A DNA stretch of 64,000 bases, taken from NCBI GenBank assembly GCA_960531495.1, contig OY482847.1:17025630-17089629 (forward strand). The letters run 5' to 3'. The notes beneath the pieces were generated by a model. It did no database searches. It was not told the origin of the DNA and saw only the letters and a program-made list of their open reading frames with translations. Made by a program: the position numbers and the translations under genes. Shown piece after piece: positions 19,837-42,850 of the stretch (position 1 is the first letter of the stretch; each line of letters begins with the position of its first letter). Source of the DNA: Zeus faber. Taxonomy: Eukaryota; Chordata; Actinopteri; Zeiformes; Zeidae.

Positions 19837-22007
19837 ACGCTGCATGTACCTGTTCTATGGTCCAAAGGATTTCAGAGCTGCCATCAGCTTTAAATCTTGA
19901 TGCGGCATAACAAATGTTTTGCTGCGATATCTTTTCTACTCAATTGTCTAAAAATAGGTTTGTGCATAACTTGAAAACACTGCTCCAGCTCAATTTCGCC
20001 AAGGGGCGGCTTTGTGTTTTTCTATTTTGTATATAATTTGCCGTTCAAGTCATGAATTGTTGATGAGGATGAATAAAATATAATGGCGCACTCTGCATAA
20101 CTCACGGGGGAACAAAAGCCCAAAAGACCTGCAGCGTCAAGAGGCAAAGGTGATAAATAGTTTCTGACAACTTCACACTACTGAGTCGATGGATAATGAT
20201 GATGGTCCGCTGTTCATTTGCTGCTGTTTATTAAGGATTGTTTGTTTTTTAGCCGTTTATTGTGTTGTTAAGACATATGCATCAGTGTGATAGAACTGAT
20301 TATATTATCTCAATACTTTAGTCTTGTCCAAGTCGTTTTTGACATTGTCCCGTCTTCCATTTTGTGTAGACGGCTGGAACCCTAAATGAGCAGCAGTAAT
20401 TAGACGTGGTCTCAAACAGAGGGTCCATTATCTCCTAATAAATGCTACTTAGCAAGTGCGTAATTAAGGTACAGCTGCCTGAGCTGGTGACAGCTCCCAG
20501 ATTAAACAATTAGCACAATGGTCAAACGCAAGGGCGGTCAAGGGAGGAAAAGCACGCGTCGGAGCGCACCAACTTTATAAGCAGCGGGACCTGCTTCCAG
20601 CGTCTGACTCCCACCGTCTTCGAGACCGGAACCGGAGCCGAGGACGCCTTGATTTCAACTTAAGTTACCGACTTAAACATATTCAACGAGCAACTCTCAT
20701 TGTTGAGGATGTGGCTGCGCTCGTAAGGAAAAAGACAAAAACAAGAAATTTAATCGAAACGTGTCATTTCATTATTCTTAAAAGCACGCTGCCTCCGCGT
20801 CCGTCGTGTGTCAGACGCTGGAATGAATGTGGCTGCGCCTCATTGCCGGCCTCCGATGTTTTCAAAGGGCCGGTCTGCACCGAAGCGTGGGCCGCGTTTG
20901 GCCCACATGCGCGTCAGGTGCCGCGGCCCAGAATGAGACATCGTTTTTTAATGACGTCCAACTTTTTCCCAGCGGTGCCGGCGGTTTCGTTATCAAAAAG
21001 CGCCTTTGAACAAGAGCAGAACGAGACGCGGAGATTATCTGAGCGACCGCTGTTCGGCTCAACTTTCTTTTCAGCCCAAACTAGCTGTAAATAAAAATGT
21101 CCCACGGGGTGGCGGGCTTTCAATTTTTATTGATTGTCTCGCTGCCTCCCCCGTACGCTGTGGAGCATCAAACCGCCTTGAAGCTCTCGGAGGTTGAGCG
21201 TCCGCGGCGGTGACGGATTGGCCGTCCGTCCGCTCCAATGGCAATTTTCCCTCCAGCTTCGCCACGGTTGTAATAAGAAATTCACAGGAAAACAAAAAGG
21301 TATAAACAAAAAATAAAAGCCGTAGTACAAACCATGCAGCGCCAATACAGGCCCCAGTCAACGCAGTCCATGGATGACACGTTACACGAGTTGTTTGAAT
21401 ATTTGTAAACGATGATCTATTGCGTTATATTTGTCGTCTGCTGCATTTGTAAATATTTGAATGATATTAAATGTAGGAGCAAAAGGCTTCCATTAAATTC
21501 CCGATTTCCCAATTTAAATTGAATTCCACACTGGAATGCACTCGCATCCTTTCGGGTAATTTGAGGATTTCTCCGGCAGCCCCCCCGGTTGTCACCTAAA
21601 GAGACGGAACCGCCGGAAGATCTCTTTCTGACACATAACCTCGCCCACGTCACGCGCTGCGTCTCGTTAATGACCCCTTACTCGGTCATTTACGAGCCGT
21701 CCGCCGTTGGATGTTGACTCTGCTGCGACTCGGTCGAGGGGGAAGGACAAACGGGGCTTCCTCATGGCCATAATCACGCACTTCATCATGTTTAGGTGTG
21801 CTGCAGAGGCTAATTTGCATGAAAAAAATACAAGAAGAAATACCCATAATGCCCCAAGACTTCCCCTCTTTTGCTTTGGAATGACTAGATTCAAAACAGA
21901 TGAGCGCACACACACACACACACACACGCGCACACACAGACAAATAGAAATTCCTGCATTTCATCCTTGCAAGCAGCAAAGATTATTATTGAGCAATGAC
22001 TTGCGTC
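19837..22007. other. intergenic, no gene recognised
   Basis: Includes GC-richer DNA at 20510-21700 and a (CA)n at 21906-21942. Several 60-130-codon frames occur, but none shows a recognisable domain or splice context. Confidence 0.5.
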
Positions 22008-22053
22008 CCCATCAGGAATGCGTCAATCTGGGCTGCCGGGTTCCACTCGCTCA
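22008..22053 (-). repeat. isolated 46-bp exact copy of the Gypsy gag gene
   Basis: This stretch, cccatcaggaatgcgtcaat to gttccactcgctca, is identical base for base to 26761-26806 inside the Gypsy gag coding region. It has the same orientation and lies 739 bp left of the element's end. The flanks do not match. Confidence 0.9.
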
Positions 22054-22791
22054 TCAACATTATGCAATCCTCCAGAATAATTTATAACCCCTACAAATTT
22101 GACCGATTTACAACTGTCCTTCATCAGAAATCTGGTTTCTTTCATCTGATCGTGCCCGGACATCGTGGCGTCCTCCACCCAAGGCATCTGAACATGGAGA
22201 ATTGGTATAAATTAGCATTTCAATTGAATTGAATTTGAGGTGCTTTTGTTTTCTCACATGTTGTACATCTGTGGGGTTTCTGGTACAAAATGACCGCCCA
22301 CACAGTATTGAATGTCCGAGGCTATATAAAAGGGCGATTTCAGCGATATTTCCTCGAATGTCAACCTTTGTTTTTTTATGGTAAAATACCTTTTTTTCCT
22401 TTTACACAACCATTCTAGTCTCTGCGGCATCAAAGCACCGCTGGCCGGGAGGATGCAAAATGTCCCTGCTTCCTTCTCTCAACAATAACTCATTTTCTCT
22501 CTCCCTCTCTGAAACTCTCGTTCCAGCGTTCCCATACTAATATTCATGATGATGATGATATTCATCACAGCCTTTTAACAGGAGGGGTGGGGGTTTAATT
22601 TATCAGGAGAAATGAGACGGCGCGGGGTCGTTGCAAATAAGAGCACGGAGGAACATCTATGTGAGAGAGGAAAATACGCTGAGAGCGTGTTTGGCGTGTT
22701 ATTTTGTGTGCCTGATATACTGTTTATAATGATGTTACAGTCAGACCTGTTTCTGTATCCCGAAAAAAAACACACAGGATAATGGCAACTG
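22054..22791. other. intergenic DNA left of the Gypsy element
   Basis: No gene or repeat recognised. A (GAT)n-like stretch is at 22541-22562. Confidence 0.5.
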
Positions 22792-22953
22792 TGTAACGGG
22801 TGTGGTTAGGACCCAATTGCAGCACAAAGACAGGCAGGGATATTTGGTAATGTCTTTTATTTGTAGAGCAGACAGAAGACAGGCAGGGAGCATGCAGGAT
22901 ACGTGGTCGGAGCGAGGCAGAGTCGGTAGCGGGGAATCAGTCCGGAGAACGCT
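22792..22953 (-). repeat. Gypsy 3' LTR, truncated (promoter half missing)
   Basis: It aligns with 27421-27623 of the other LTR, with about five substitutions, a 2-bp indel and the 43-bp length difference. It stops abruptly at the integrase stop codon. The 175 bp corresponding to 27624-27798 (U3 with the TATA box) and the expected polypurine tract are absent. The AATAAA is kept (22856-22861 on plus). Confidence 0.9.
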
Positions 22954-24470
22954 AGTACACGTCGGAGACCCCGTCCATCTCCTCGTCCTCCACTAAATGG
23001 GCCACGTCCTCATCGGAGCAGGGACCCCCAGGGTCGACATCCTCCGCCTCTGAAACATTAGACAACAATAGAGGTGGTGGGGTCTGCGGTCGGGAGGGTT
23101 GACCCGGTCTGGAGGGCTGGTCAGGATGGCGCTGATGGAACTTCCTGATGAGGGTGTGGTCCAGAATCTGCCTCGCAGGAACCCAGGACCTCTCCTCCGG
23201 GCCGTAACCCTCCCAATCCACCAGGTACTGCAGGCCTCTTTCACGCCGGCGGAAACGTAGGAGACGGCGGGAACGTAGGAGATGGCGGACAGAGAAGGCA
23301 GGACCCCCGTCAATGAAGCGCGGAGTAGACGGGGGAGGCGCCAAGGGGACCAGAGCACTCTCCCGGACTGGCTTGACCTTGGACATGTGGAAGGTGGGAT
23401 GGACTCGCATGGACCTGGGGAGCTTGAGCTGCACTGCCACCGGGTTGACGACCTTCTCGATCTTGAATGGGCCGATGAACCGAGGAGCCAGCTTCTTAGC
23501 GTCCACCTTCAGGGGGAGGTCCCGGGTGGAGAGCCAGAACTTCTGGCCCGGCTGGTACTCCGGGGCCTGGGAGTGGCGACGCTTGGCGGCAGAGTCGTTG
23601 CAGCCAGCGGCTCGGAGGAGGGCGGCCCGGGCCCGGGTCCAGGTCCTGCGACAGCGGCGAATGAAGGCCTGGACGGACGGGCAGGAAGCCTCCCTCTCAA
23701 GGGCCGGGAACAGAGGCGGTTGGAAGCCGTAGGCACACTGGAAGGGGGAGAGGCCTGTGGCCAAACTGGTCAGGGTGTTGTGGGCATATTCCACCCACAA
23801 AAGCTGCTCAGACCAGGAAGACGGGTGTTGAGACGTCATGCAGCGCAGGGCCATCTCCATCTCCTGGTTCTTCCGCTCCGTTTGGCCGTTGGACTGGGGG
23901 TGGTACCCTGAGGACAGGCTGACGGTGGCCCCCCAGGAGCGAACAGAACTCCCTCCAGAAGACCGAGGCGAACTGGGGACCCCGGTCGGATACCACATCT
24001 ACCGGGATGCCATGGAGGCGGAAGACATGATACAACAGTAGCTTGGCGGTGCCATTGGCCGACGGGAGCTTCGGTAGAGGCACGAAGTGAGCCATCTTGC
24101 TGAACTGGTCCACCACGGTCAGGATAGTAGTGTTGCCGCTAGACGGTGGCAGACCGGTGACGAAGTCCAAGGAGATGTGAGACCAGGGGCGATGAGGAAC
24201 CGGCAGTGGGTGTAGGAGACCGGCAGGAGCAAGAAGAGAGGGTTTGTGCTGGTTACAGGTGGTGCAGGCATTGACGAACCCTCGGGCGTCCTCACCCAGG
24301 GAGAGCCACCAGAAGCGACGCTGGACGACCTCCTTCGTCTGCTGGATCCCCGGGTGGCAGGTGAGTCGGGAGTTGTGGGCCCACTGAAGAACCTCAGACC
24401 TCGGAGGTCAGGGAGGACGAACAGACGGTCGGGCGGACATGCGCTGGGTCCAGGTTGGTCCTGGGCGGCG
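22952..24470 (-). pseudogene. Gypsy integrase with C-terminal chromodomain, broken
   Basis: The zinc-binding H2C2 part lies at about 24240-24390, split by a frameshift. The core has [11 protein letters not shown] (first Asp), [12 protein letters not shown] (second Asp) and [11 protein letters not shown] (Glu), a D,D-35-E catalytic set. A G-run near 23935-23945 shifts the frame between the second Asp and the Glu. The C-terminal part is a 348-codon open frame holding a GPFKI linker and a chromodomain block [18 protein letters not shown], followed by a Pro-rich tail ending in TAG at 22954-22952. Family role: strand transfer of cDNA; the chromodomain targets chromatin marks. Confidence 0.9.
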
Positions 24471-24679
24471 GCTCTGACCTTCTCTTCCACCTCCCAGGTG
24501 AGTGTGGCAACTAGACGGGAGGACGGTAGAATGGTGTCAGGGTCAGCAGCGTCTTCCTCCTCCTCCTGGAGTTCAAACCTGACGCCCTGCCGGGACAGGG
24601 CGTCAGGTTTGACATTGCGTGACCCTGGCCGATAGGAGAGGGAGAAATTGAACCTGGTAAGGCCCAACGGGCCTGACGG

Positions 24680-25950
24680 GAGTTCAGTCTCCTGGCGGAC
24701 TGAATATACTCCAGGTTCTTGTGGTCAGTACACACCAGGAACGGCAGCTGGGTTCCCTCTAGCCAGTGTCGCCACTCCTCCAGGGCTAATTTCACGGCGA
24801 GAAGCTCCCTATTCCCGATGTCGTAGTTCCTCTCGGCCGGGGTCAAACGCCTGGAGAAGAAGGTGCAGGGATGAAGCTTCTGGTCGGAGGCGGTTCTCTG
24901 GGAGAGAACAGCTCCGACTCCCAAGTCGGAGGCGTCCACTTCAACCACGAACTGCCGTTCGGGGTCAGGCAATACCAGAATGGGAGCTGAAGTGAACCGT
25001 GCCTTCAGGGCCAGGAAGGTGCCGTTGGCGGCGGCGGACCACAGAAACGGCACCTTGGAGGAGGTTAGGGCTGTGAGGGGGGCAGCCACCGTGCTGTAGC
25101 CTCGGATGAACCTCCGATAGAAGTTGGCAAAACCGAGGAAGCGCTGGAGTTGTTTGCGGGTGTCCGGGGCGGGCCAGGTGGTGACGGCGGAGACCTTGGT
25201 GGAGTCCATCTGGATGGTCCCCCTCCCCACGACATACCCCAGGAAGGAGACGGACGGGAAACTCACACTTCTCCGCCTTCACAAAGAGTGAGTTCTCCAG
25301 GAGGCGCTGCAGGACCGTCTGGACGTGGTGGACGTGCTCAGCTTGGGATCGGGAGAAAATCAGGATGTCGTTGAGGTACACAAAGACGAATTCTTTGAGC
25401 ATGTCCCTGAGCACGTCATTGACCAGGGCCTGGAAGACCGCAGGGGCGTTGGTGAGACCAAAGGGAATCACCAGTTATTCGTAGTGACCGGAGGGAGTGT
25501 TGAACGCCGTCTTCCATTCGTCTCCCTCTCGAACCCGGACCAGATGGTAGGCGTTGCATAGGTCGAGCTTGGTAAACACCGTGGTCCCCTCCAGGAGTTC
25601 GAATGCTGATGAGATGAGGGGATAGCGGTTCTTGACCGTAATGTCGTTGAGACCGCGATAGTCAATACAGGGGCGAAGCGACTTGTCCTTCTTCTCCAGG
25701 AAGAAGAAGCCAGCCACCACCGGGGATGAGGAGGGACGGATGATGCCCACCGCCAGAGCATCGTAAATATAGGTGTCCATGGCCTCTCTCTCCGGGGCGG
25801 ACAGGGAGTACAGGCGGCCTCTGGGGGGGGGGTGGAGCCGGGCTGGAGGTCGATGGCAATATCGTATGGCCTGTGCGGAGGAAGGGATGTCCCCTTGGCC
25901 TTGCTGAAGACCTCCCTGAAGTTGAGGTACTTGGCGGGGACCCCCAACAT
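24680..25950 (-). pseudogene. Gypsy reverse transcriptase and RNase H, broken
   Basis: The RT opens [19 protein letters not shown] and runs into a run of nine C (plus G at 25828) that shifts the frame. It continues with [12 protein letters not shown] and [15 protein letters not shown] (Asp of motif A present). A TAA at 25477-25475 follows GHYE. The palm motif reads VYLNDILIF instead of Y-x-D-D, with Asn at 25370-25372, so a catalytic Asp is lost. A further frameshift lies near 25265. The RNase H part keeps VDAS, NREL and TDHKN, so its acidic residues look intact. In the family this enzyme copies element RNA into DNA. Neighbouring frames on the plus strand here are antisense shadows. Confidence 0.9.
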
Positions 25951-26099
25951 GTCAGGTGCAGAGCTGGAGCTGGTGGGTGGCTGAGGTGCGGCGGCTTGCT
26001 TCAGGCAGACCTGATGGCACGCAGGACCCCATCCTAGAATAGCCCCTGTGGTCCAGTCGAGGTGTTGTGACGCCGGAGCCAGGGGAACCCCAGGAGGAG

Positions 26100-26340
26100 G
26101 GGGTGACGAGGTTAGTGCAGGATGCAGAACTGCATCGTCTCGTGGTGGTTGCCGGACAGGAGCATGCGGATCGGCACCGTCTGATGGGTGACTGTCCCCA
26201 GGAGGCGGCCATCCAGGGCAGTGGCAGGAACCGGAGAAGGCAGGAGAACTCGACCAATACCCAGCTGCCGTGCTAGGTTATCGTCGATGATGTTAAGAGT
26301 CAATAAGTATGGCGAGGGAATGTGAGCATTGGGGCAGCAG
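26100..26340 (-). pseudogene. Gypsy aspartic protease remnant
   Basis: The block [18 protein letters not shown], then [19 protein letters not shown] and [12 protein letters not shown], is the retropepsin-like segment of this Gypsy group. Just upstream (about 26290-26310) the reading frame gives ILIDS followed at once by TAA, and the rest of the protease is in another frame. The catalytic D-S/T-G is therefore cut after Asp-Ser by a small indel, and the enzyme cannot be made as written. Confidence 0.75.
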
Positions 26341-26411
26341 CAGCTGAGCCTGACACAGGGGGCATGGGTTTCAGGAGGGTTTGGAGGTGTGGCTCACCAG
26401 GACCTCCTCCC

Positions 26412-27403
26412 TCACTGGTGAGCCCGGCCTTTTACCAGACACCCGGAGATGTAGTGTCCAGCTAGACCGCAGTAGAGACAACGGTTCCCCACCCGGCGTC
26501 TCTCCTTCTCCTCCGGGGTGAGGCTGGCCCGGCCAACCTGCATGGGAGGGGCCTCACTCGTGGGTTAACGGGCCGGAAGAGCTGGCGGCCCGGAGGAACC
26601 TGGGAGACAGGTTGCTGGGCGGCGCTCCACTTGGCTTCGACGCCGCTCTCGCTGCCGGGCCTGCATGCGTCGGTCGATACGGGAAGCAAGCTCAATGATG
26701 CCATCGAGAGAGGTGGGCAGGTCGTGGGAAACTGGCTCTTCCTTCACGTACTCTGCTAATCCCATCAGGAATGCGTCAATCTGGGCTGCCGGGTTCCACT
26801 CGCTCAGTCGAGCCTGGGTGCGGAAGTCGATCGCGTAATCGACCACGGAGCGGGACCCTTGACTGAGACCCAGGAGACCACCAGTAGCATCGGGACCCCG
26901 TGATGTAAACCCGAACACCTTGCGGAGCTCGGCAGCGAAGGCGTGGAAGGAGGAGCAGGCTGGTGTGCGTCGTTCCCACTCGGCCTTTCCCCATAGCCGA
27001 GCGCTGCCCGTCAGGTGATTTACGGCGAACGCCACCCTGGCATCCTCGGAGGCGAAGGTGTGGGGCTGCAGAGCGAAGAGGATGGAACAGTTCGTGATGA
27101 ACGGACTACAGCCGTCTGCGTCTCCAGCGTAGCGTTCTGGAACCCCCACCCGGGGCTCCAGGGGGTACCCAGTCTGGGTACTGGTGGAGGTGGGTCCGGG
27201 GAAGCGGGCGGCGGGATGAACTGACCGAGAGCGAATGCGAGCTGCTGGTCCTGGGCGGCTAGCGTGGCGAGCCCTTGCTCCTGGCTAGCTGCTGCTAGCC
27301 GAGCGTCCGCTGAGGTGGAGGCTCGGACAGCCTCCTGGTGTTGGAGCTGTGACTCCACCCGTCCCAGGCGTGCCAGCAACTTGGGGTTGTGTGCTGGGTC
27401 CAT
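26412..27403 (-). pseudogene. Gypsy gag (capsid and zinc knuckle), broken
   Basis: ATG at 27403-27401 begins MDPAHNPKLLARLGRVES, 18 bp after the 5' LTR, then a Q/A-rich N-terminal part. A frameshift near 27150 separates this from the capsid part, which has GVPERYAGDADGCSPF, LTGSARLWGKAEWE and the R-RMQARQRERRR region before the knuckle. A premature TAA at 26564-26562 follows. In the same frame beyond it lies the CCHC box C-LY-C-GLAG-H-YISG-C at about 26439-26481, then a stop at 26414-26412. In the family Gag packages element RNA into particles. A 46-bp segment of it (26761-26806) recurs exactly at 22008. Confidence 0.88.
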
Positions 27404-27420
27404 TGTTGGCCAGATTGTAC

Positions 27421-27798
27421 TGTAACGGGTGTGGTTAGGACCCAATTGCAGCAAAGACAGTCAGGGATATTTGGTAATGTCTTTTATTTGTAGAGCAGAT
27501 GGAAGACAGGCAGGGAGCAGGCAGGATACGTCGTCGGGGACAGGCAGGCTCGATAACGAGCAGGCAGGATACGTGGTCGGAGCGAGGCAGAGTCGGTAGC
27601 GGGGAATCAGTCCAGAGAACGCTGGAGAGTCTGGTGCAAGCATCGAAGACAATCTGGCAATGGGTGACTGGTGAAAGAGGCATATATAGTAGTTAGATTA
27701 CAGATCGGGAACAGCTGTGTGCGCAGGTGAATGGAGTTGGACTAATGGGACAGGTAAGGAGAGGGAGGGGAAAGTAGAAGAAGGCGGAGATCATGACA
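27421..27798 (-). repeat. Gypsy 5' LTR (full length, 378 bp)
   Basis: On the minus strand it starts TGTCATGA and ends CGTTACA, the TG...CA LTR form. A TATATA-type box is at about 27679-27686 and an AATAAA is at 27483-27488 (TTTATT on plus), in the order U3-R-U5. It carries a 43-bp extra segment, a partial tandem duplication of gagcaggcaggatacgt, absent from the other LTR. Confidence 0.9.
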
Positions 27799-38615: not shown

Positions 38616-38777
<162 letters not shown>

Positions 38778-42100: not shown

Positions 42101-42135
42101 GGGTTGGTGCGCGCGCATACATTCGGGCGTACACA

Positions 42136-42286
<151 letters not shown>

Positions 42287-42329
42287 GCACAGACACAGAC
42301 TCGCCTTCAGACTTCATGCATGAAGGTAA

Positions 42330-42850
42330 ACAACTCTCACTCTCCACACCTCCTCCTCTTCTCGCCTCTCCTCTCTCCTCCTCCACACAGCTTATTGTCT
42401 CCTCTCCTTTCCCCCTTTTCTTCCTCTTCCTCTCCCTTCTTCTCTCCTCTCCTCTTATCCCCTCTCCCCTCCTCGGCTCTCATCTTCTCCTCACCACCCA
42501 ACTCCCTATTTGTCATCTCCCCTCCTCTTTTCTCCTCTTTCCCCTTCCTCTCCCCTCCTCTCTCCTCATCTCCTTTCCCTCTCCACTCCCCGTCTCTCCT
42601 CTCCACGCATCGTCTTGTCCCTTCCCTCCTTTCCTCATTTTCTCTCTCTTGCTCTTCCTCTCCCCTCGTCTCTCCTCCTCTACTGTCCTCTCATCTTTCT
42701 CTCCCTCTCCTCTCCTTTGACAACCTCTCTACTGAACTACTGTCTGTTCTTCCCTTCTCTTCTCCTCTCCCCTCTGCATCGCCTCCTCTTTCCCTCTCCC
42801 TCTTCTCTCCTTTCCTCTCTTCTTCTCTACTTCCATCTTCTCCCCTGCTC
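42330..42850. repeat. polypyrimidine (CT-rich) tract
   Basis: About 520 bp of almost pure C/T on the plus strand with scattered A/G, built of tcctctcc-like units. The following 42855-42900 switches to purines (aggagaggagagaag). The 277- and 222-codon frames crossing it are composition artefacts. Confidence 0.9.

Follow-up and report, generated by a model that had tools for sequence, protein, structure and literature searches.

A naked 46-bp piece of Gypsy gag in Zeus faber DNA, probably a templated repair patch

The window, which is the whole 64,000-nucleotide stretch of Zeus faber DNA that was analysed, contains a degraded Ty3/Gypsy element and, to the left of it, a short piece of gag sequence (here called the scrap) situated in unrelated DNA. 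The features in and around these two are as follows.

21907-21942, plus strand: CA microsatellite, 65 bp left of the scrap
22002-22007, plus strand: TGCGTC, possible microhomology, directly left of the scrap
22008-22053, minus strand: the scrap, a naked, exactly matching 46 bp of gag in unrelated DNA
22094-22316, plus strand: old diverged dispersed repeat, right of the scrap
22792 to about 27623, minus strand: degraded Ty3/Gypsy element with RT, RNase H and chromodomain pieces (outer right end approximate)
22792 to about 22960 and 27421 to about 27620, minus strand: LTR-like ends of the element, found by self-match
26565-27149, minus strand: gag reading frame piece of 194 aa
26761-26806, minus strand: stretch of gag identical to the scrap, its nearest and most likely donor

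The scrap and the gag stretch at 26761-26806 agree at 46 of 46 positions in direct orientation, and the very next base on either side is a mismatch. Chance alone, given the base composition of the window, would yield about 1.4e-18 such matches. The ungapped identity of the adjoining 20, 50, 100 and 200 bp on both sides is at the random level found for random pairs of places in the window. The earlier note had described an exact 46-bp identity in the same orientation with unmatched flanks, and this is what is found. The scrap consists of internal gag only, without any LTR sequence. Read in the frame of the element it gives 15 codons (SEWNPAAQIDAFLMG). As to an exonised or coding role, a reading that was considered but not adopted, the gag-codon frame across it is a 31-codon open stretch.

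With simple repeats masked, 15 self-matches were listed in the window, the 46-bp pair among them. Four inverted pairs of diverged dispersed repeats are also present (12320-12541/50931-51153, 34148-34309/49162-49316, 48861-48997/50627-50767 and 49437-49618/50407-50591), with partners clustering at 48.8-51.2 kb. Long simple repeats at 201-615, 38618-38775 and 42131-42716 consist of ATAG, GA, and AC with a CT-rich tract after it; a perfect GA run of 158 bp is among them. At the gathering score no Rfam family was found in the window, and four of the larger frames outside the element have no Pfam match up to E 0.1.

Between LTR-like repeats, the element carries gag, RT, RNase H and chromodomain pieces in that order, with the last three lying in separate frames. 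The placing of the second 46-bp copy inside the gag gene of a Gypsy element starting at 22792 was also correct: the frame at 26565-27149 matches Pfam Retrotrans_gag (2.1e-11) and DUF4939 (3.4e-8), and an LTR-like repeat begins at 22792. Other minus-strand pieces match RVT_1, RT_RNaseH, SH3_Tf2-1 and Chromo; the scan of six element pieces showed no integrase core domain. The gag frame has 87 homologues, which include named proteins from the fish Takifugu, Lucifuga, Merluccius, Champsocephalus and Scortum. A search of IMG/VR for gag relatives gave seven pattern matches, none of which was confirmed. Of 154 aligned sites in the two LTR-like repeats, 5 are different, a divergence of 3.2%; there are indels in addition. 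About 43 bp of the right repeat, at about 27515-27557, are absent from the left one (22792-22953); they look like a GAGCAGGCAGGATACGT-like unit duplicated in tandem. A clean target-site duplication was not found at the ends of the element. A 4-bp GCAA pair at its ends is not convincing, the left copy being 3 bp off the LTR start and the right one lying at 27636-27639.

The genome searched for further copies was the window's own assembly (803 Mb in 153 contigs), in which the window lies on a 40 Mb contig. An exact pattern search found 16 copies of the 46-mer, nine forward and seven reverse; the reversed control gave none. Fifteen of the 16 are flanked by gag, 14 of these lying outside the window, and 22008-22053 is the only naked exact copy. 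In viral and prokaryote contigs the exact 46-mer was absent, as expected. A looser DNA search with 21900-22200 as query gave 40 scored matches out of 771 first-look candidates; the query included the CA microsatellite, and the 771 need not all be gag copies. Thirty-nine of the 40 were fetched as loci L001-L039, and the fortieth is the window copy at 26761-26806. Gag continues on both sides in 38 of the 39 fetched loci, by at least 41 bp on the left and, except in L028, by at least 52 bp on the right. The one naked locus among the 39 is the scrap itself. The frequency of scraps is given only by these two counts, 1 of 16 exact copies and 1 of 39 fetched loci. The isolation of an internal gag piece, as claimed in the earlier note, is supported by the genome search that it had proposed.

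In L028 the gag alignment extends 120 bp to the left of the 46-mer and 7 bp to the right. This locus was considered as a second scrap (173 bp) and rejected, as it sits in a long element copy with internal deletions that spans 23330-27636 of the element. Another element copy, L040 (G000:C2:50481000-50488500), lacks positions 26494-26640 and 26814-27307 around gag; its second gap starts 7 bp past the 46-mer.

The copy of the 46-mer nearest to the scrap is 4,753 bp away, and the next identical copy on the same contig is at a distance of 2,045,044 bp. For a random site, the chance of having one of the 15 possible identical donors within 4,753 bp is 1.8e-4. The chance is at most 0.9% if all 771 candidates are counted as copies, which is an upper value because the query held the CA microsatellite.

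The flanks of the scrap were also searched against the genome, with the understanding that an absent match in such a DNA search does not prove rarity. For the left flank (21300-22007), where 40 of 506 candidates were scored, all matches listed other than the flank itself run through the CA microsatellite. The right flank (22054-22750; five candidates, all scored) matches four other places, L042, L043, L044 and L045, at 67-83% identity. These matches begin only at 22094, 40 bp past the scrap, and the sharp start is common to three of the four places, so that the old dispersed repeat begins at 22094. No gag piece was seen in the displayed stretches adjoining the four repeat copies. The possibility that the scrap belongs to a longer repeat family unrelated to Gypsy, which had been named at the outset as an observation that would overturn the claim, was rejected: the searches with the flanks (the left one with 40 of 506 candidates scored) and with the 46-mer gave no such family, and 15 of 16 exact copies are in gag. 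A decayed second Gypsy copy was looked for in 750 bp on the left side of the scrap and 738 bp on its right side, where the only matches to the element have E of 1.5 or more. When the six element protein pieces and the 87 gag homologues were used as queries, all 14 matches outside the element fell on the scrap.

TC is all that the two sequences bordering the scrap have in common, and no useful target-site duplication is formed. Direct inspection of 21940-22120 showed no poly(A) adjoining the scrap. The TGCGTC on its left recurs inside it (P about 0.009, post hoc); the recurrence lies 11 bp inside the scrap and not at its edge. If the flanks were joined with the shared TC, they would read TGCGTCAA, 8 bp that are present in the donor (frequency at random places 0.005, post hoc). 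The right flank alone has a 4-bp match to the scrap, which is no excess (P 0.15). These two matches to the scrap and donor are only hints of microhomology: both were found post hoc, the first is 11 bp in from the edge of the scrap, and there is no excess on the right. At 17 of 19 bp, positions 22056-22074 are like an internal part of the neighbouring old repeat in its L043 copy (P about 0.003, post hoc). The left flank has no such likeness to the old dispersed repeat (P 0.56). To explain the resemblance at 22056-22074, the break may have hit remains of older repeats, or the repair may have used a second template.

The scrap is best explained as a patch copied from the gag gene of the element 4.75 kb away during the mending of a double-strand break, a reading to which a probability of about 0.6 is assigned. 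A break would have occurred near 22008, after the element had been inserted. A patch would then have been synthesized on gag DNA of the same chromosome, by synthesis-dependent strand annealing or other templated end-joining, with the neighbouring element rather than another identical copy, or its cDNA, as the probable donor. Joining of the copied strand to the other end would leave 46 bp in direct orientation without an LTR, a poly(A) or a useful target-site duplication. Local copying is favored because the identity is exact over 46 bp, the edges are sharp, the scrap is the sole naked copy and the donor is only 4,753 bp away. On the other side, the pair was noticed since both copies lie in one 64 kb window and, given this ascertainment, a distance of 4,753 bp or less has a 15% chance. 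Simple priming at TGCGTC would also leave the first 11 bp of the scrap uncopied. Templated repair of a break had been put forward in the earlier note, and becomes the favored reading for an internal gag piece with neither LTR, poly(A) nor target-site duplication.

The patch might alternatively be a fragment of Gypsy cDNA, or of RNA copied at the break, that came from any active member of the family and was end-joined into the break. This ranks second after local copying and is rather unlikely. It would agree with the presence of the exact 46-mer in 15 gag copies, which implies a widespread version as the source, and with known systems: in yeast, breaks are reported to capture Ty1 cDNA fragments that derive from every region of the element (PMC10802722, a preprint), and RNA and cDNA patches are among the subjects reviewed in PMC5110952. 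However, it leaves the identical copy 4.75 kb away unexplained, an argument that is strong for a random site and much weaker after ascertainment. A more elaborate version, in which a break in the vertebrate germline was patched from Gypsy RNA or cDNA and two templates were used in series (gag and then, 2 bp on, the 19 bp resembling the old repeat), is decidedly doubtful. The scrap could also be what remains of a second, longer Gypsy insertion after deletions on both sides. The gag alignment is interrupted fairly often in the family, ending at least 59 bp short on one side in 11 of the 38 other fetched copies, and the gaps of L040 flank gag. But two deletions, each ending inside gag and leaving 46 bp unchanged, would be needed; among the 38 other fetched copies there is none with close cuts on its two sides, L028 being part of a long copy; and the protein matches outside the element all fell on the scrap. 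This origin is improbable.

An artefact of assembly or library preparation is a shade less probable still. The scrap is known from one assembly only, but the window is part of a 40 Mb contig of a genome assembled into 153 contigs, and contains no N. Gene conversion from the Gypsy element, which had also been suggested and with which the common orientation and chromosome agree, can be nearly dismissed. It needs a homologous acceptor, whereas the identity of the flanks to the donor is at the random level and the 40 scored matches (of 506) of the flank at 21300-22007 all run through the microsatellite. Outside the 46 bp, then, no homology between acceptor and donor can be detected, and the suggestion is not supported.

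The perfect identity says little about age. The absence of differences over 46 bp excludes, at 95%, only a divergence above 6.3%, which is twice that of the element's LTRs, and if the divergence were the 3.2% of the LTRs, 46 bp without a difference would be seen with a probability of 22%. As divergence of up to 6.3% is compatible with the data, and the stretch is identical also in 14 gag copies beyond the window, neither a very recent event nor constraint follows from the identity; the proposal that the scrap is recent or conserved was an overstatement. Special conservation of the segment was rejected, since 80 of 180 15-residue windows of gag (its own included) are at least as conserved. The same 15 residues occur in none of the 58 homologues, out of 87, that cover the segment ungapped, the nearest having 13 of 15.

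The closest known class is that of the repair-mediated duplications (RDs) described in vertebrates, zebrafish included, by Pace, Sen, Batzer and Feschotte in 2009 (PMC2671141). That survey reports 1,136 duplications in human, 824 of them with a donor within 5 kb, and 80 cases in zebrafish; the breakpoints are described as having 2-9 nt of microhomology, filler and deletions. Like the RDs reported there, the scrap is a short non-tandem duplication without poly(A), an extra copy in non-homologous flanks, and the TGCGTC on its left may be microhomology of the kind described there. Its probable donor is also on the same chromosome and, at 4,753 bp, within 5 kb, although the 14 other identical gag copies leave the donor unproven. 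The differences are that the scrap has 46 bp against a cut-off of 50 bp in PMC2671141, and 15 other exact copies against a filter for a single other copy. In our reading of the survey these two limits are detection filters and not mechanistic criteria. RD acceptors, as described there, lay inside interrupted transposable elements, unlike the acceptor of the scrap.

Class 2 templated sequence insertion polymorphisms, as presented in PMC5110952, are similar in being patches from elsewhere without a target-site duplication of at least 5 bp and without poly(A). However, the experimental class 2 inserts reported in that review are 73-414 bp long and come from distant sources, and the scrap is known from a single assembly. 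Ty1 cDNA capture in yeast, according to the preprint PMC10802722, likewise puts a fragment from inside an LTR retrotransposon into a break, as would have happened here, but the nearby donor of the scrap favors a DNA source. Templated insertions made by Pol theta (PMC12426944, PMC5730883) are also described as short products of templated synthesis at a break, the process proposed for the scrap. They are generally shorter than 25 bp and templated from the break flanks, with more than 20 consecutive bases only occasional, according to PMC12426944; the scrap has 46 bp. About 40% of the inserts at breaks in rad27 yeast are reported to be shorter than 50 bp (PMC11724301). A normal LTR retrotransposon insertion would have LTR ends and a short target-site duplication, and a LINE-mediated (class 1) insertion would have poly(A) and a target-site duplication of at least 5 bp; the scrap has none of these.

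The view that normal retrotransposition did not leave the scrap therefore stands, as there is no LTR, but the process is not as strange as the earlier note implied, the type of scar having been catalogued in PMC2671141. The scrap is best regarded as an ordinary example of a repair scar of a known class, unusual mainly in being short and in having been copied from a repeated element. With 46 bp it falls under the 50 bp size limit used in that survey. A single case does not decide between copying from a neighbour and cDNA capture in the germline. Counting such scraps across fish genomes, together with the distance of each to the nearest identical element, would gauge how local copying compares with the capture of retroelement cDNA.
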